From the IMG/VR virus record IMGVR_UViG_3300027759_003485, positions 1 through 21,919 of that record: a stretch of 21,919 nt of DNA. The stretch is one strand, 5' to 3'. The DNA is from a virus. The position numbers and the translations under genes were made by a program. A model generated the notes under the pieces. It worked only from the letters and a program-made list of their open reading frames with translations, ran no database searches and was not told where the DNA came from. The stretch's first letter is position 1. Every line of letters starts with the position of its first letter. Below are positions 559 to 14,790 of this stretch, piece by piece.

Positions 559-1137
559 TTATAATAGTCCGTTGTCTTCTTGACCCAGTTTTGAAAAACT
601 CCACGATCTTTCGGTACATTGCCAACAACGATTACAACGACCAATGGACTGTTCTGTACAAGAATGAGTTATATAAATCAAATCTTGTTGATTGTGCTTA
701 AACATCATCTCAATTATATCAGTTTTGTACAGATCAACGAATGGAAATATAATTCTGGGATCATTGGACTTTTTATCTCTCTGTGGGGCTCCGGGCAAAT
801 GATCTAGTTCGGGAGGATTTTGATTAATTCCTATAAACAAACGATTTACTAGATAGTTATTAAAAATGTCAATCACTGCTGTAGTACTTTGTACCCTGTG
901 ATGAGCTCTTGAGTCACCTACATAAATTGTTTCCGGAATACTTAGATTAAATTTTTTGTTAAAGTGTTTGACAATTGGATTGGCATAGCGGCTGGCCCCA
1001 TCCGTTTTGTCTATAGTGAATGGTTGTAGCTGTATTTTTGGTTCTTGCCGTATAAGTAGATACAATAATACAGCACTATCTAGTCCTCCGGAGAGCATAA
1101 TGCCATATTTTTTATCAAGGTCAATTGGTGGAATCAT
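559..1137 (-). CDS. queC: QueC-like PP-loop ATPase (7-cyano-7-deazaguanine synthase family)
   Basis: 192 residues. The N-terminal PP-loop reads SGGLDS (residues 16-21), the ATP-pyrophosphatase signature of QueC/ExsB enzymes. The C-terminus has a four-Cys cluster (C160, C168, C171, C174; SC-x7-CNRCWQC) matching the zinc site of QueC. QueC converts 7-carboxy-7-deazaguanine to preQ0 with ATP and ammonia. In phages the product can feed queuosine or 7-deazaguanine DNA modification. At 192 residues it is somewhat shorter than usual QueC (about 220-230), so a related PP-loop function is possible. A QueD-like gene lies at 9571-10077, supporting a deazaguanine role, but QueE, FolE and a DpdA-type inserting enzyme are not in the window. 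A perfect T4-late box (TATAAATA) lies six bases before the ATG, and no Shine-Dalgarno is seen. Confidence 0.78.
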   Translation of the reverse strand: MIPPIDLDKKYGIMLSGGLDSAVLLYLLIRQEPKIQLQPFTIDKTDGASRYANPIVKHFNKKFNLSIPETIYVGDSRAHHRVQSTTAVIDIFNNYLVNRLFIGINQNPPELDHLPGAPQRDKKSNDPRIIFPFVDLYKTDIIEMMFKHNQQDLIYITHSCTEQSIGRCNRCWQCTERSWSFSKLGQEDNGLL

Positions 1138-5375: not shown

Positions 5376-5570
5376 ATGAACTGGGAACTCTATGAAGTCT
5401 GGGCCGAGGATGAAGACGGCCACGAGGAGTTGATTGACACAACTAACAGCCGCAGCCAGGCTTTCAAATTGGCCCAAGATACTCTTGCTGAAGGGTATAT
5501 TGCTAGTATCGTCTATCTGGAAAACGAAGAAGGCGATTTGGAAAAGGTAAAACGATTTGAAAACAGTTGA
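5376..5570 (+). CDS. Small acidic phage protein of unknown function
   Basis: 64 residues, strongly acidic, with an alternating beta-alpha-beta look (WELYEVWAEDEDG, a central helix SQAFKLAQDTL, then SIVYLENEEGD). A good Shine-Dalgarno (AAAGGAG, about 5355-5361) supports the start. Its stop TGA lies inside the -35 of the following sigma70 promoter. The size and pattern resemble small single-domain regulators or inhibitors, but no family is recognised. Confidence 0.7.
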   Translation: MNWELYEVWAEDEDGHEELIDTTNSRSQAFKLAQDTLAEGYIASIVYLENEEGDLEKVKRFENS

Positions 5571-5595
5571 CAATCCCAGAAAATGGTGTTATACT
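5567..5595 (+). promoter_or_regulatory. Sigma70-type promoter
   Basis: TTGACA (5567-5572), 17 bases, TATACT (5590-5595): one mismatch from consensus, optimal spacing. Predicted +1 near 5602 gives a leader of about 24 bases that contains AGGAG just before the ATG at 5626. The -35 overlaps the stop of the previous gene, the same arrangement as at 3305 and 11844. Confidence 0.87.
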
Positions 5596-5625
5596 ATAAG
5601 TATAGATTAACACACAGGAGTGACA

Positions 5626-6795
5626 ATGGCTACTAAAGCAAAACATTTGGCAGATGCTCGTGCAAAAAAAGGTCGTGACCTTAGTCCGAAATGGGAAGGG
5701 CATGAAACTTGGGACACCAATCAATTCTTACGACATTTCCATTCCAGCATGGCGTGGTATCGCTTAGAAAGTTCTAATAAAGAACTTAAACCCAAAGTCA
5801 TCGATTGGATGGGACGTCAAGGCTGTGCCAAAGTAGACATCGATGCTTTTAAGAAAACCAAAGATAATCGTTGTGGAACTACAATGGGTGCAGTTGCTGC
5901 CTGTTTGATCAAAGGTATGCCTGCTATTCGTGCAGATTTTAACGATGGTCGTGATACTGCGGCTTGGTTACGGGCTCGTATCAATGAAGTCATCGAACAA
6001 GGCAAAGACGACAAGGACGACAGCGACGAAGTTGTTGAAGTTAAAAAGGATGTCTACACTCCTAGCATTCAAGAACGTGTTCGTGAAGCCAGTTATAAGA
6101 TGACTGAGGAAATTGAAGCTGCTATTGATGCTTTCCAAACAGATCCAGAAGAGTTTGATCCCAAAGCCTTTAAGGTCCTCAATGTACTGAAAGCCAAAGA
6201 AGCCAAAGCAGCTCATACTCGAATTATTAAAACCTTTTACGAGCGTGATCTTGCAGAGCTTGTTGAGGCTGCGTCTACTAAAGACGAACAGCTTAAAGAA
6301 GGCTACAGTCATTTAACTAAGGCACAGTTGAAGAAGATCACTGCTTTCTATCAAGAAGTTGTCAGTGCCTGCGATATGCTGGGACAAGAAGCCAAAGTTA
6401 ATCGCAAGCCACGTGCTAAAAAGCCTACAGATAAGAGCAAGGTTGTTGGTAAACTCAAGTATATGAAGACCAATGAGCCGCTAAAACTAGTTAGTATTAA
6501 CCCTGAAGATATTATTGGCGCTCAAGAACTATGGATTTATAACAGCAAGACTCGAAAACTGGGCAAGTATGTTGCTGAGGAATTCAAAGAGTTAGGTGTT
6601 AAGGGCACCACTATTATAGGATTTAGTGAAAGTAAGTCTATCCAAAAGACTATTCGCAAACCCGAGGAAAAACTCAAGGAGTTCAAAGCCGCAGGTAAAG
6701 TAGCTTTGCGTAAGTTCTTAGACGATATCAACGCTACAGACGCCCGTATGAACGGTCGTATCAACGAGGAAACAGTACTTCTCAAAGTACAATAA
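5626..6795 (+). CDS. Conserved phage protein of unknown function (large, basic)
   Basis: 389 residues from the ATG at 5626, chosen over the in-frame GTG at 5620 because AGGAG (5616-5620) has proper spacing to it. The N-terminal region (PKWEGHETWDTNQFLRHFH, about 23-41) precedes an acidic linker of Lys/Asp repeats near residues 124-135, a long helical segment, and a Lys/Arg/Pro linker near 262-275. The C-terminal domain contains SINPEDIIGAQELWIYN and GKYVAEEF. Proteins of this layout recur in marine T4-like phages without an assigned role. The linkers suggest two or more globular domains; DNA binding is possible from the basic linker but unproven. The next gene, the first tail fibre, starts 40 bases later behind its own late box. 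Confidence 0.78.
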   Translation: MATKAKHLADARAKKGRDLSPKWEGHETWDTNQFLRHFHSSMAWYRLESSNKELKPKVIDWMGRQGCAKVDIDAFKKTKDNRCGTTMGAVAACLIKGMPAIRADFNDGRDTAAWLRARINEVIEQGKDDKDDSDEVVEVKKDVYTPSIQERVREASYKMTEEIEAAIDAFQTDPEEFDPKAFKVLNVLKAKEAKAAHTRIIKTFYERDLAELVEAASTKDEQLKEGYSHLTKAQLKKITAFYQEVVSACDMLGQEAKVNRKPRAKKPTDKSKVVGKLKYMKTNEPLKLVSINPEDIIGAQELWIYNSKTRKLGKYVAEEFKELGVKGTTIIGFSESKSIQKTIRKPEEKLKEFKAAGKVALRKFLDDINATDARMNGRINEETVLLKVQ

Positions 6796-6806
6796 GATGT
6801 AAAGCC

Positions 6807-6844
6807 TTCTGCCATAGTCGAATAAATACTAGACTATGGCAGAA
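6807..6844 (+). promoter_or_regulatory. 13-bp perfect inverted repeat over the tail-fibre start codon
   Basis: Arms TTCTGCCATAGTC (6807-6819) and GACTATGGCAGAA (6832-6844) are perfectly complementary around a 12-base loop; the right arm contains the ATG (6836-6838). The loop carries a late-promoter-like AATAAATA (6821-6828). RNA reading in from upstream would fold into a stable hairpin hiding the start. RNA begun at the late box (+1 about 6834) would lack the left arm. Confidence 0.85.
6821..6828 (+). promoter_or_regulatory. T4-late-type promoter box for the first tail-fibre gene
   Basis: AATAAATA differs from the T4 late consensus TATAAATA at one position and is followed by CT, as in many T4 late promoters. 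It lies exactly in the loop of the 6807-6844 inverted repeat. Predicted +1 is about 6834, two bases before the ATG. No Shine-Dalgarno precedes that ATG. Confidence 0.58.
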
Positions 6845-7972
6845 AACAACCTCGACAAAGCACTTGCCTACCTAGGCACAAGTTTACAAACACTGGTACA
6901 GCAGGCCAACGGCCCTGTTGATCTAAATCATCTTCATACTAAAATTGCTAAACGCAGTTTATCTGGCGATCAAATTACCGGAGGAACTATTACAAGTTTT
7001 GCAAGTTCTGGTATCAAAGATGAAGCTACTAAACAACAGATTACCGTAAAGGATTCTGGAGTAGAATTTGGAACTATTTCTATAGAACAGGTAAAAGGTA
7101 ATCTAACTGTAGAAAATGCTATCACTGCTAGGTCCATAATTGTAGATATTTTAGAAGTTAAAGAATTAAGAACTGATTTAAAGTTAGGTCAAAGTGCTCC
7201 GTTAGAAATTACAGTCAGTGACGGAGAAACACTAGTAGGTAAAGGCTTGCTATTGAAAGGTCAAGGCCCTACTAAACAATTAATTTTTACAACCAATCCC
7301 GACAAATTTACCAGCACCGAACATTTTGAATTAATCAAAGATAGAGAATATAGGATCAGTGGCGATGCTGTATTGTCAGCCACTGCTCTAGGTCAAGGAG
7401 TGGTAAAGAGTAATCTACGAGAACTAGGTAGACTACGAGGTTTGATTGTAGATGGAAGTGCCAGTTTTGGTCAGTACATCTATTACGATAACAACACCAA
7501 TAGATTAGGGCTAGGAACAGAACAGCCAAATGCAGGATTAAGTGTTTGCGAAGATGGTATCGAAGTATTAGTAGGCACCAAAGACCAAACTCGTGGAATG
7601 ATTGGTACATTTGCCAGCGCACCTTTTGATATTATCACCGACAACACCTCTAGAATTAGCATAGGATCAGCAGGCAACATTCTGTTAGGTAATACCAGCG
7701 AAGGACCTGTTCAAGTTTCTATACACGGAAAGCTGGCTATTCGAGTAAACACTCCTGACCCAGACGTCGATCTTCACGTTAATGGCCCTGTTCGTTTCCA
7801 CGGACATCTACACATCTATGCAGATTCATCTCCGGATTCAGGAACATATAAAACTGGAGACATTGTTTGGAACACCGCACCTAGGGCAGGAGGCAATGTA
7901 GGTTGGGTCTGTGTACGTGCAGGCAGTCCCGGAGACTGGATGCCATTTGGCCCAATAACACAAGCAGGATAA
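6836..7972 (+). CDS. Tail-fibre/adhesin-like virion protein
   Basis: 378 residues. The N-terminal 130 residues include IKDEATKQQITVKDSG and a segment ARSIIVDILEVKEL typical of marine T4-like tail-fibre proteins. From about residue 133 it matches the next gene product throughout: KGQGPTKQLIF, then VKSNLRELGRLRGLIVDG, NRLGLGTEQPNAGLSV, DIITDNTSRISI and a C-terminal GWVCVRAGSPGDWMPFG. This is a beta-rich repetitive fibre-type protein, probably a trimeric tail component or host-recognition protein. The start codon lies within a 13-bp inverted repeat with a late box in its loop, and there is no Shine-Dalgarno. The next gene begins after a one-base gap. Confidence 0.8.
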   Translation: MAENNLDKALAYLGTSLQTLVQQANGPVDLNHLHTKIAKRSLSGDQITGGTITSFASSGIKDEATKQQITVKDSGVEFGTISIEQVKGNLTVENAITARSIIVDILEVKELRTDLKLGQSAPLEITVSDGETLVGKGLLLKGQGPTKQLIFTTNPDKFTSTEHFELIKDREYRISGDAVLSATALGQGVVKSNLRELGRLRGLIVDGSASFGQYIYYDNNTNRLGLGTEQPNAGLSVCEDGIEVLVGTKDQTRGMIGTFASAPFDIITDNTSRISIGSAGNILLGNTSEGPVQVSIHGKLAIRVNTPDPDVDLHVNGPVRFHGHLHIYADSSPDSGTYKTGDIVWNTAPRAGGNVGWVCVRAGSPGDWMPFGPITQAG

Positions 7973-7973
7973 T

Positions 7974-8834
7974 ATGTCAGATAAATTAACACAAGCCGCA
8001 GAGCTGTTATCACAGGCTCTTAGAGAAATAACTCAGGAAAATACAACGGTCTCAGATGATCGTGTTGTAGAATTCAATACAGATGCAGATGGAAATAACT
8101 ATGGCAAAGGGTTAATGTGGAAAGGGCAAGGACGAACAAGACAATTCATCTTTGCTAAGGGCGATAAATTTATCAGCAGTGAGTCCTTAGAACTGTTAAA
8201 AGATCAAGAATTTAGAATTAACAACAACCCTATATTGTCAGAAACACAATTAGGCGCTACCGTTGTTAAAAGTAATCTCCGAGAGTTAGGTAGACTACGA
8301 GGATTGATCGTAGATGGAGATCTAAGTGTCAATCAATATCTTTATTACAACGCTTCAACTGATAGATTAGGTCTAGGAATAGAACAACCTAATGCGGCTT
8401 TAAGCATTGCAGAAGATGGTATTGAAATCTTAATAGGTACCTCGAATGGATCTACAGGAAAAATTGGAACCTTTGCCAGTAATGATTTAGATATTGTCAC
8501 AGACAACACAGCCAGAATTACCATTGAAGGCGGTGGCAACATTAAGTTAGGTAATAAGGCATTTGGTCCTATACAGGTTACAGTTCATGGCAAATTGTCT
8601 GTAGGTGTTAAAACTCTAGACAGTCGTGCAGATCTTCATGTAGCTGGCGCAATTAAATTCAACGAAAGACTGCATCAATATCTCAATGCCATTCCCGATA
8701 ACGGAACCTATGATCGTGGATCTATAGTATGGAACACAGAACCAGATGTAGGTAGATGTGTTGGATGGGTCTGTGTACGTGCTGGAAGTCCTGGAACATG
8801 GATGCCATTTGGTGAAATAAAACAAAGCGGTTAA
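7974..8834 (+). CDS. Tail-fibre-like protein, shorter paralogue of the preceding gene
   Basis: 286 residues. From about residue 42 it is collinear with the upstream protein (KGQGRTRQFIF; VKSNLRELGRLRGLIVDG identical in both; RLGLGIEQPNAALSI; DIVTDNTARITI; GWVCVRAGSPGTWMPFG). The first 40 residues differ and are helical (KLTQAAELLSQALREI); the 130-residue N-terminal domain of its neighbour is missing. The DNA is also recognisably repeated, so this is a tandem duplication followed by divergence or domain loss. AGGA lies upstream of the ATG. The pair may form alternative tips, homologous subunits of one fibre, or receptor-range variants. Confidence 0.78.
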   Translation: MSDKLTQAAELLSQALREITQENTTVSDDRVVEFNTDADGNNYGKGLMWKGQGRTRQFIFAKGDKFISSESLELLKDQEFRINNNPILSETQLGATVVKSNLRELGRLRGLIVDGDLSVNQYLYYNASTDRLGLGIEQPNAALSIAEDGIEILIGTSNGSTGKIGTFASNDLDIVTDNTARITIEGGGNIKLGNKAFGPIQVTVHGKLSVGVKTLDSRADLHVAGAIKFNERLHQYLNAIPDNGTYDRGSIVWNTEPDVGRCVGWVCVRAGSPGTWMPFGEIKQSG

Positions 8835-10077: not shown

Positions 10078-10228
10078 AGCATGGCGTCTTTGGGCTAAAG
10101 CCCTAGGCGCCAAAGAGGGCAATAGCGATCACGAAGCAGATCGTATTGCCCTTATACGCACCTTAATTATATTCTGTTATTTCGTTACAAATCTTTTTAT
10201 TATTGCCGGAGTCATTAGGCATTGGTAA
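10058..10228 (+). CDS. Small single-pass membrane protein
   Basis: 56 residues from the ATG at 10058, overlapping the QueD-like gene by 20 bases; an in-frame GTG at 10037 would add seven residues. The N-terminal half is basic and aromatic ([14 protein letters not shown]). A hydrophobic helix (about residues 33-53; [18 protein letters not shown]) ends in RHW. The positive N-terminal half suggests it stays in the cytoplasm, with one span through the inner membrane. Similar small proteins accompany QueD-like genes in marine phages. Function unknown. Its stop TAA forms part of the TAAATA box before kdsA. Confidence 0.66.
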
Positions 10229-10231
10229 ATA
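10224..10231 (+). promoter_or_regulatory. Possible late-type promoter box for kdsA
   Basis: GGTAAATA followed five bases later by the ATG at 10237. With T4-late geometry +1 would be about 10237, the first base of the start codon. The TAA is also the stop of the previous gene, so chance is a real alternative. No Shine-Dalgarno lies at normal distance from the ATG. Confidence 0.4.
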
Positions 10232-10236
10232 ATAAT

Positions 10237-11079
10237 ATGCGTACATTTAACATTCACAACATCACTGTGGGCAACGATCATCCGTTTATATTGATTGCAG
10301 GCCCTTGTCAAATTGAGAGTCAACAACATGCTCTCGATACAGCCGAACGAATTAAAAATATTACCAGCAAACTGGGAATTAAATTTGTTTACAAAAGCAG
10401 CTTTGATAAAGCTAATCGTTCTAGTGTCGGTACTAAACGAGGTGTGGGTATCAAAGAAGGATTAGAAATTCTTAACACAGTCAAACATCGGCTCGGTGTT
10501 CCAATTCTTACAGACATTCACGAGTCTTGGCAGGCACAAGAAGTTTCAGATGCTGGAGTAGATATTCTACAGATTCCTGCGTTTTTATGTCGTCAGACTG
10601 ATCTGTTGTTAGCAGCAGGTGCTACAGGAAAAGCAATCAATGTGAAAAAAGGACAGTTCCTTGCTCCACACGATATGAAGAATGTTGCGGAAAAGATTGC
10701 CAGCACAGGCAACGAACACATTATGTTATGTGAAAGAGGATATACTCATGGATATAATAATCTTGTTGTTGACATGCGTAGCTTACCCATTATGGCTCGC
10801 ACCGGGTATCCAGTGGTCTTTGATGCCACTCATAGCGTACAACAACCTGGCGGACTTGGAACAGTCTCTGGGGGAGATAGAGCCATGGTACCCTACCTGG
10901 CGAGAGCTGCCATAGCCACTGGCTGTGTTGCCGGAGTGTTTATGGAAACACACGAAGATCCAGACAATGCTCCTAGCGATGGTCCTAACATGATACAGTT
11001 AGACAACCTCAAAGACATATTAGAAGAAATGGTAGCTATCGATGAAATTGTCAAAAGAAGTAAGAGACAGTCTAACTAA
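10237..11079 (+). CDS. kdsA: 3-deoxy-D-manno-octulosonate 8-phosphate synthase KdsA (metal-dependent type)
   Basis: 280 residues, full family length. The enzyme condenses phosphoenolpyruvate with arabinose 5-phosphate to Kdo-8-phosphate, the first committed step to Kdo of lipopolysaccharide. Seen: AGPCQIES (21-28), KSSFDKANR (53-61), [12 protein letters not shown] (195-206), [17 protein letters not shown] (235-251). Cys24, His199, Glu237 and Asp248 match the four ligands of metal-dependent KdsA, rather than the Asn of the metal-free E. coli type. The ATG at 10237 is preferred over the in-frame TTG at 10222. It overlaps the next gene by 38 bases. KdsB and KdtA are not present, so any Kdo made would enter the host pathway or be used by unknown phage enzymes. 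Confidence 0.93.
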
Positions 11080-14757: not shown

Positions 14758-14790
14758 GTAGAGCAACCTTAAATCTTAGGATTCTACTAT
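14755..14790 (+). promoter_or_regulatory. 8-bp inverted repeat covering the start of the giant structural gene
   Basis: ATAGTAGA (14755-14762) pairs perfectly with TCTACTAT (14783-14790), which includes the first two bases of the ATG. The 20-base loop holds the Shine-Dalgarno AGGA. The predicted late +1 (about 14763) is the first base after the left arm, so only read-through RNA could form the hairpin. The architecture repeats that at 6807-6844. Confidence 0.65.

Follow-up and report, generated by a model that had tools for sequence, protein, structure and literature searches.

The stretch of DNA analysed here (the window, 21,919 nucleotides in full) is a 21.9-kb uncultured virus record that is itself a fragment; no DNA similarity to cultured phages was found for it. 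An early unit with a sigma70-type promoter leads directly into a late gene, and no terminator lies between the two in the window (Table 1). The sigma70 promoter has at most one mismatch out of 12 in 110 of 113 relatives, compared with 3–7 mismatches in stretches inside the gene. The N-terminus of the late gene product, MAENN..., is common to all six sequences of the window's own type and matches start-to-start in L083–L085. The two tandem fibre-like virion genes 3' of the junction match phrog_2617, phrog_21471 and phrog_6002, and a giant gene farther downstream has a T4 gp9/10-like N-terminus. The tail-fibre label given in the initial annotation was borne out to the extent of profile matches to short tail fibre and virion structural families.

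Table 1. Features at the early/late junction of the window, in order of position
Feature	Position	Strand	Remarks
sigma70-type (early) promoter of the upstream gene	5567..5595	+	TTGACA-17-TATACT; 11/12 consensus matches
Upstream gene (phrog_11903), function not assigned, probably early	5620..6795	+	start GTG 5620 or ATG 5626, after AGGAG
Hairpin left arm, TTCTGCCATAGTC	6807-6819	+	5' of the predicted late start, hence on read-through RNA only; kept while the preceding spacer varies
Hairpin loop, GAATAAATACTA	6820-6831	+	12 nt; holds the late promoter
T4-type late promoter, AATAAATA	6821..6828	+	in the hairpin loop; GATAAATA in most relatives
Hairpin right arm, GACTATGGCAGAA	6832-6844	+	covers codons 1-3, ATG included
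Predicted late transcription start zone	6833..6836	+	leader 0-3 nt; deduced from the T4 start rule and the gaps found in relatives
Putatively gated late gene for a 378-aa tail-fibre-like virion protein	6836..7972	+	no Shine-Dalgarno sequence; profile matches
Tandem paralogue, directly after the preceding stop	7974..8834	+	presumably same late operon; profile matches

The arms at 6807-6819 and 6832-6844 form a perfect 13-bp inverted repeat with the ATG (6836-6838) inside the right arm and the promoter motif in the 12-base loop, exactly as initially annotated. The motif agrees with 7 of the 8 bases of a TATAAATA-like element, and relatives carry GATAAATA, AATAAATA or CATAAATA in its place. This repeat is the sole perfect stem of at least 13 bp with a loop of at most 30 nt in the window, and also the longest. 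Its existence is by itself only modestly unusual; a 13-bp stem arose somewhere in 3 of 200 dinucleotide-shuffled versions of the 21.9-kb window, so that position and conservation, not stem length, carry the argument. When the 60 nt upstream of the promoter were shuffled, none of 200 shuffles matched the observed stem (p=0.005). Folding placed the AUG of the late gene within a stable 13-bp helix on the read-through RNA (z = -5.1 versus shuffles for the RNA around the hairpin), while the late transcript was ordinary (z = -0.07). Opening the first 12 nt from the AUG cost 17.5 kcal/mol on the read-through RNA versus 0.9 kcal/mol on the late RNA. The folding comparison proposed in the initial annotation thus came out in its favour, with the start covered on the former RNA and no fold available to the latter. 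The promoter lies 3' of the left arm in the window and in the same order in relatives, so the late RNA, judged by sequence only, should lack the left arm. No Shine-Dalgarno sequence precedes ATG 6836; relatives with a leader have one, for example AAAGAGAG.

Relatives were collected by five scans of viral contigs for junctions of the same two genes. The upstream gene was present at 263 loci, at 230 of which it was followed by NATAAATA and then an ORF start; 117 of these junctions were distinct and fell into 31 sequence types by shared 8-mers. The gap from NATAAATA to the ATG at the 117 junctions was 5 nt (n=34), 7 nt (n=24) or 18-23 nt (n=59). In 30 of the 31 types the downstream proteins belong to one family with very different N-termini. 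Inverted repeats of unrelated sequence enclose the promoter and cover the start region in type after type, as in TCTAAGGGTTGAT...ATCAACCCTTAGA (L284), GTTTGGCGTAGTTTGAT...ATCAAACTACGCCAAAC (L038), ATAGTCCGGTCTT...GAGACCGGACTAT (L276), TGATGGAGTCTCT...AGAGACTCCATTA (L082) and GGTCTGTCATAGTT...GACTATGACAGACC (L324, where the homologue is 51% identical to the window's gene). Altogether the hairpin recurs, with differing arms, in 20 of the 31 types. Shuffling of the upstream flank alone gave p<=0.01 at 28 of 53 first-round junctions versus 3 of 300 ordinary genes. In leadered types the hairpin covers positions -11 to +2 around the ATG. Counting against the gate, the long stem in leaderless gap-5 types usually begins 7-9 nt past the AUG, and the AUG is enclosed by a short nested hairpin instead. 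At L257, L258, L277-L280, L282 and L283 the fibre gene is missing and a different gene, with an ordinary ribosome-binding site, comes next; neither the late promoter nor the hairpin is present there. Cultured relatives of the upstream gene (PA5oct, phiN3, Cr30, OC, BUCT-ZZ01 and DLP_6) have other genes downstream and no such hairpin.

To compare junctions we used the opening cost of the start region on the read-through RNA minus that on the late RNA. Together with a best-stem measure, this replaced base-pair counts (start region versus upstream) in minimum-energy folds, which were uninformative, as shuffled flanks pair too. The excess had a median of 12.5 kcal/mol at junctions without a terminator versus 1.2 kcal/mol in 400 ordinary genes, and exceeded 8 kcal/mol at 82% of the former versus 0.5% of the latter. 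As a positive control, the measure singled out e, I-TevI, 49, segB and I-TevII in T4. A 209-aa T4 ORF on the minus strand at 52456 (reverse-complement coordinates), with GATAAATA 12 nt before its ATG, scored 11.8 kcal/mol, like the known gated genes. A hairpin at every late promoter can be ruled out; late sites above 8 kcal/mol made up only about 14% of those in the large relatives, the focal ones included, and gating is therefore selective.

Hairpins and terminators tended to replace one another at the junction. A strong hairpin was present in 1 of the 7 types that carry an intrinsic terminator and in 19 of the 24 that do not (Fisher p=0.0036); by locus the figures were 3 of 29 and 74 of 88 (p=7e-13), but sequence types are not fully independent, and the type-level p, itself approximate, is to be preferred. 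Weak hairpins or none were seen in five types without a detected terminator, one of which (L006/L009) has a terminator-like stem missed by the T-run rule. That two unrelated devices occupy the same place suggests a single need, namely to stop early transcription from expressing the late gene.

An alternative is that the hairpin terminates the early mRNA from upstream, or stabilises its 3' end, and overlaps the start codon only by coincidence. In the window the hairpin starts 12 nt past the stop codon of the upstream gene, and a true terminator fills the same interval in other types. What follows the hairpin, however, is coding sequence without a T run beyond 6844, and the hairpin was not among the hits of the terminator scan, so that it lacks the GC-rich stem plus T run of an intrinsic terminator. 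Types with a true terminator mostly have no hairpin. The placement of the arms follows the ATG or Shine-Dalgarno sequence and the promoter, as the coverage in leadered types illustrates. The right arm lies within the coding region, which a terminator would not need, and similar hairpins occur at other late starts that are not behind the upstream gene. We regard this explanation as improbable.

Pairing between the arms was further examined by covariation. Among nine gap-5 junctions, 8 of 14 pairs were changed on both sides (score 0.45 versus 0.15 when shuffled and at most 0.09 when slid), and among five leadered junctions 3 of 13 pairs were compensatory (score 0.34 versus 0.14 shuffled). One row, L179, was left out of one covariation alignment, its arm having been misplaced by MAFFT. 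The window's own set had 2 compensatory pairs of 14, a number reached by 21 of 500 shuffles; this sub-family alone offers weak evidence for pairing, since its right arm is coding and barely varies. Across related phages, the arms are thus kept as a pair through compensatory changes, the outcome that the initial annotation had expected of a real gate.

Departures from pairing inside the stems bear on whether the repeat acts as RNA. Read in the message sense they were G-U rather than A-C by 19:3 (p=0.0009), a count limited to positions with two Watson-Crick pairs on either side; a first version that included the stem ends gave 24 G-U versus 28 A-C and no bias. The bias, which rests on the second definition, favours RNA over DNA. 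A dyad acting as DNA, either as a cruciform or as a symmetric site bound by a protein to control the late promoter in the loop, would fit the position of that promoter and the perfection of the repeat in the window. The arms, however, are unrelated between types and leave no shared binding site, the internal wobble is biased in the sense strand, and the right arm follows the Shine-Dalgarno sequence or AUG in leadered types, all of which make such a role very improbable. Chance combined with codon constraint in a conserved N-terminus might appeal to the 13-bp stems in 3 of 200 shuffled windows and the little-diverged sub-family of the window, but it is already contradicted by the comparative data, namely the recurrence in 20 of 31 types with different arms, the covariation, and control genes that almost never reach such opening energies, and its probability is negligible.

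Late genes gated by a start-region hairpin have been described in T4 (e, soc, 49, I-TevI, I-TevII and segB) and in Aeh1 (mobE) (PMC3014915, PMC2988022). The gate is defined there by sequestration of the Shine-Dalgarno sequence and/or the AUG; release of the Shine-Dalgarno sequence on the late RNA is a trait of the T4 examples and not part of the definition (PMC3014915). As in T4, the late promoter lies inside the hairpin, the start would be sequestered on read-through RNA and the late RNA would lack the left arm; the L050/L354 type, GGATAAATACTC-GAAA-GAGAGTTTATCCATG, is almost identical in layout to I-TevI and segB. Unlike the T4 genes, the window and all gap 5-7 types have no Shine-Dalgarno sequence and essentially no leader, and T4 has no late-promoter motif less than 12 nt from an ATG. 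The gene affected also differs, being a fibre-like virion gene at one conserved junction where the hairpin is rebuilt, or exchanged for a terminator, across lineages. The comparative evidence, together with the two favourable tests that the initial annotation had named, supports its T4-style gate logic. Because the Shine-Dalgarno trait of the T4 examples is missing, we class the window's gate as a putative variant of the T4-type hairpin gate, without a Shine-Dalgarno sequence and practically leaderless.

Similar arrangements occur at other late genes of these phages. A DAHP/KDO8P-synthase-like gene is hairpin-gated in L007 (8236) and in L047/G007 (L047: 7276), with arms ATGTACGCAT...ATGCGTACAT; in the window (10225-10260) this gene keeps the right arm in its coding start without the left arm and the exact promoter. 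A gated 241-aa gene is present in G004, G006 and G014 with differing arms, and a gated 94-95-aa gene in G001 (126146, minus strand), G002 (80931, plus), G006 (83757, plus) and G014 (218051, minus). The arms of the leader stem of this latter gene covary (TATACGTG/CACGTATA versus TATGCGT/ACGCATA), with the predicted start within the left arm. The giant gene at 14789 was considered as gated and rejected, its TAGTAGA/TCTACTA pairing being weak and not conserved.

The late promoters resemble the gp55-dependent promoters of T4 in having a TATAAATA-like element near late starts, and a gp55-type sigma gene lies beside a gp47-like (SbcD) gene in large relatives (G001 and G002; phrog_12791, E 1.7e-80 and 7e-79). 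The late sigma was found in 8 of 9 searched relative contigs of at least 128 kb (the eight measuring 128-356 kb), the exception being G003, a 146-kb fragment; no gp55 was found in G003-G007, all fragments, or in the window, a 22-kb fragment. The late promoters differ from those of T4 in that GATAAATA rather than TATAAATA dominates at the junction and about half of the late starts have a gap of 4-7 nt. In T4, a late transcript begins about 13 nt downstream of the first base in the promoter motif. By this rule, a gap of 5 makes the A of the AUG the first transcript nucleotide and the window's gap of 7 gives a leader of 0-3 nt; the 5' end near 6834 proposed in the initial annotation follows from the same rule.

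In contigs G001-G007 (L114-L168) the promoter-ATG gaps of late genes are sharply two-peaked, at 4-7 and 18-30 nt. The NATAAATA-to-ATG gap was 4-7 nt in 59 genes of seven large relatives, 8-17 nt in 9 and 18-30 nt in 49; the corresponding numbers were 0, 6 and 16 in T4 and 2, 2 and 19 in PA5oct, and permuted motifs gave no comparable peak. These distributions suggest that G001-G007 have a large class of leaderless late genes that T4 lacks and PA5oct has hardly at all. If the T4 start rule applies to them, the window's gene and roughly half of the late genes in these phages appear leaderless, with a promoter-ATG gap of 4-7 nt found at no T4 gene. In the window, the QueC-like gene (559-1137, minus strand) has TATAAATA ending 6 nt before its ATG (region 1137-1151), within a short ATCATCGATGAT palindrome, and its start is probably another of the leaderless type. 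Among cultured phages, the Pseudomonas aeruginosa jumbo phages PA5oct, MIJ3 and Paride come closest, both in gp55 (48% identity) and in the upstream gene (40%), but have a neck-protein gene without a hairpin after the upstream gene and almost no (2) leaderless-type late starts. PA5oct does carry a gated leadered late gene of 478 aa at 134989 (L367), with a start-region hairpin GTCTCCGTC...AACGGAGAC around GATAAATA. The limited collection of literature searched contained no description of T4-like phages with leaderless late mRNAs.

Sequence comparison establishes the parts of the gate, the paired conservation of its arms, the energetics, the trade-off with terminators and the presence of gp55 in relatives. 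Taken together these make it very likely that a cis-acting RNA gate controls a late virion gene lying directly behind an early gene; we infer the existence of the read-through RNA, the late 5' end, and the block and release of translation. Early in infection, host-sigma70 transcription from the upstream promoter would pass through the upstream gene into the late gene. On this read-through RNA the 13-bp hairpin would bury the AUG, with no Shine-Dalgarno sequence at hand, and the fibre protein would not be made. Late in infection, a gp55-type sigma would initiate at AATAAATA in the hairpin loop, and the resulting RNA, starting on the AUG or no more than about 3 nt from it and devoid of the left arm, could not fold and would be translated (nearly) without a leader.

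We also favour, with less assurance, a broader proposal in which late expression in these uncultured, gp55-encoding phages follows a leaderless programme. The promoter of roughly half of their late genes would be fixed 4-7 nt before the AUG, so that the mRNA starts with the initiation codon itself and can do without a Shine-Dalgarno sequence. Early silencing by hairpins or terminators would be confined to places where an early gene reads in, and gates would be rebuilt from new sequence at each exchange of the N-terminus.

A trick known from a handful of T4 genes thus appears to be under strong selection at one early/late junction across a phage group, where unrelated sequences do the same job and terminators serve as an interchangeable alternative. 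The opening energy across the start provides a simple sequence test by which such gates may be found in any phage genome. The junction further suggests that some T4-related phages make late mRNAs without a leader, a class that T4 itself lacks.
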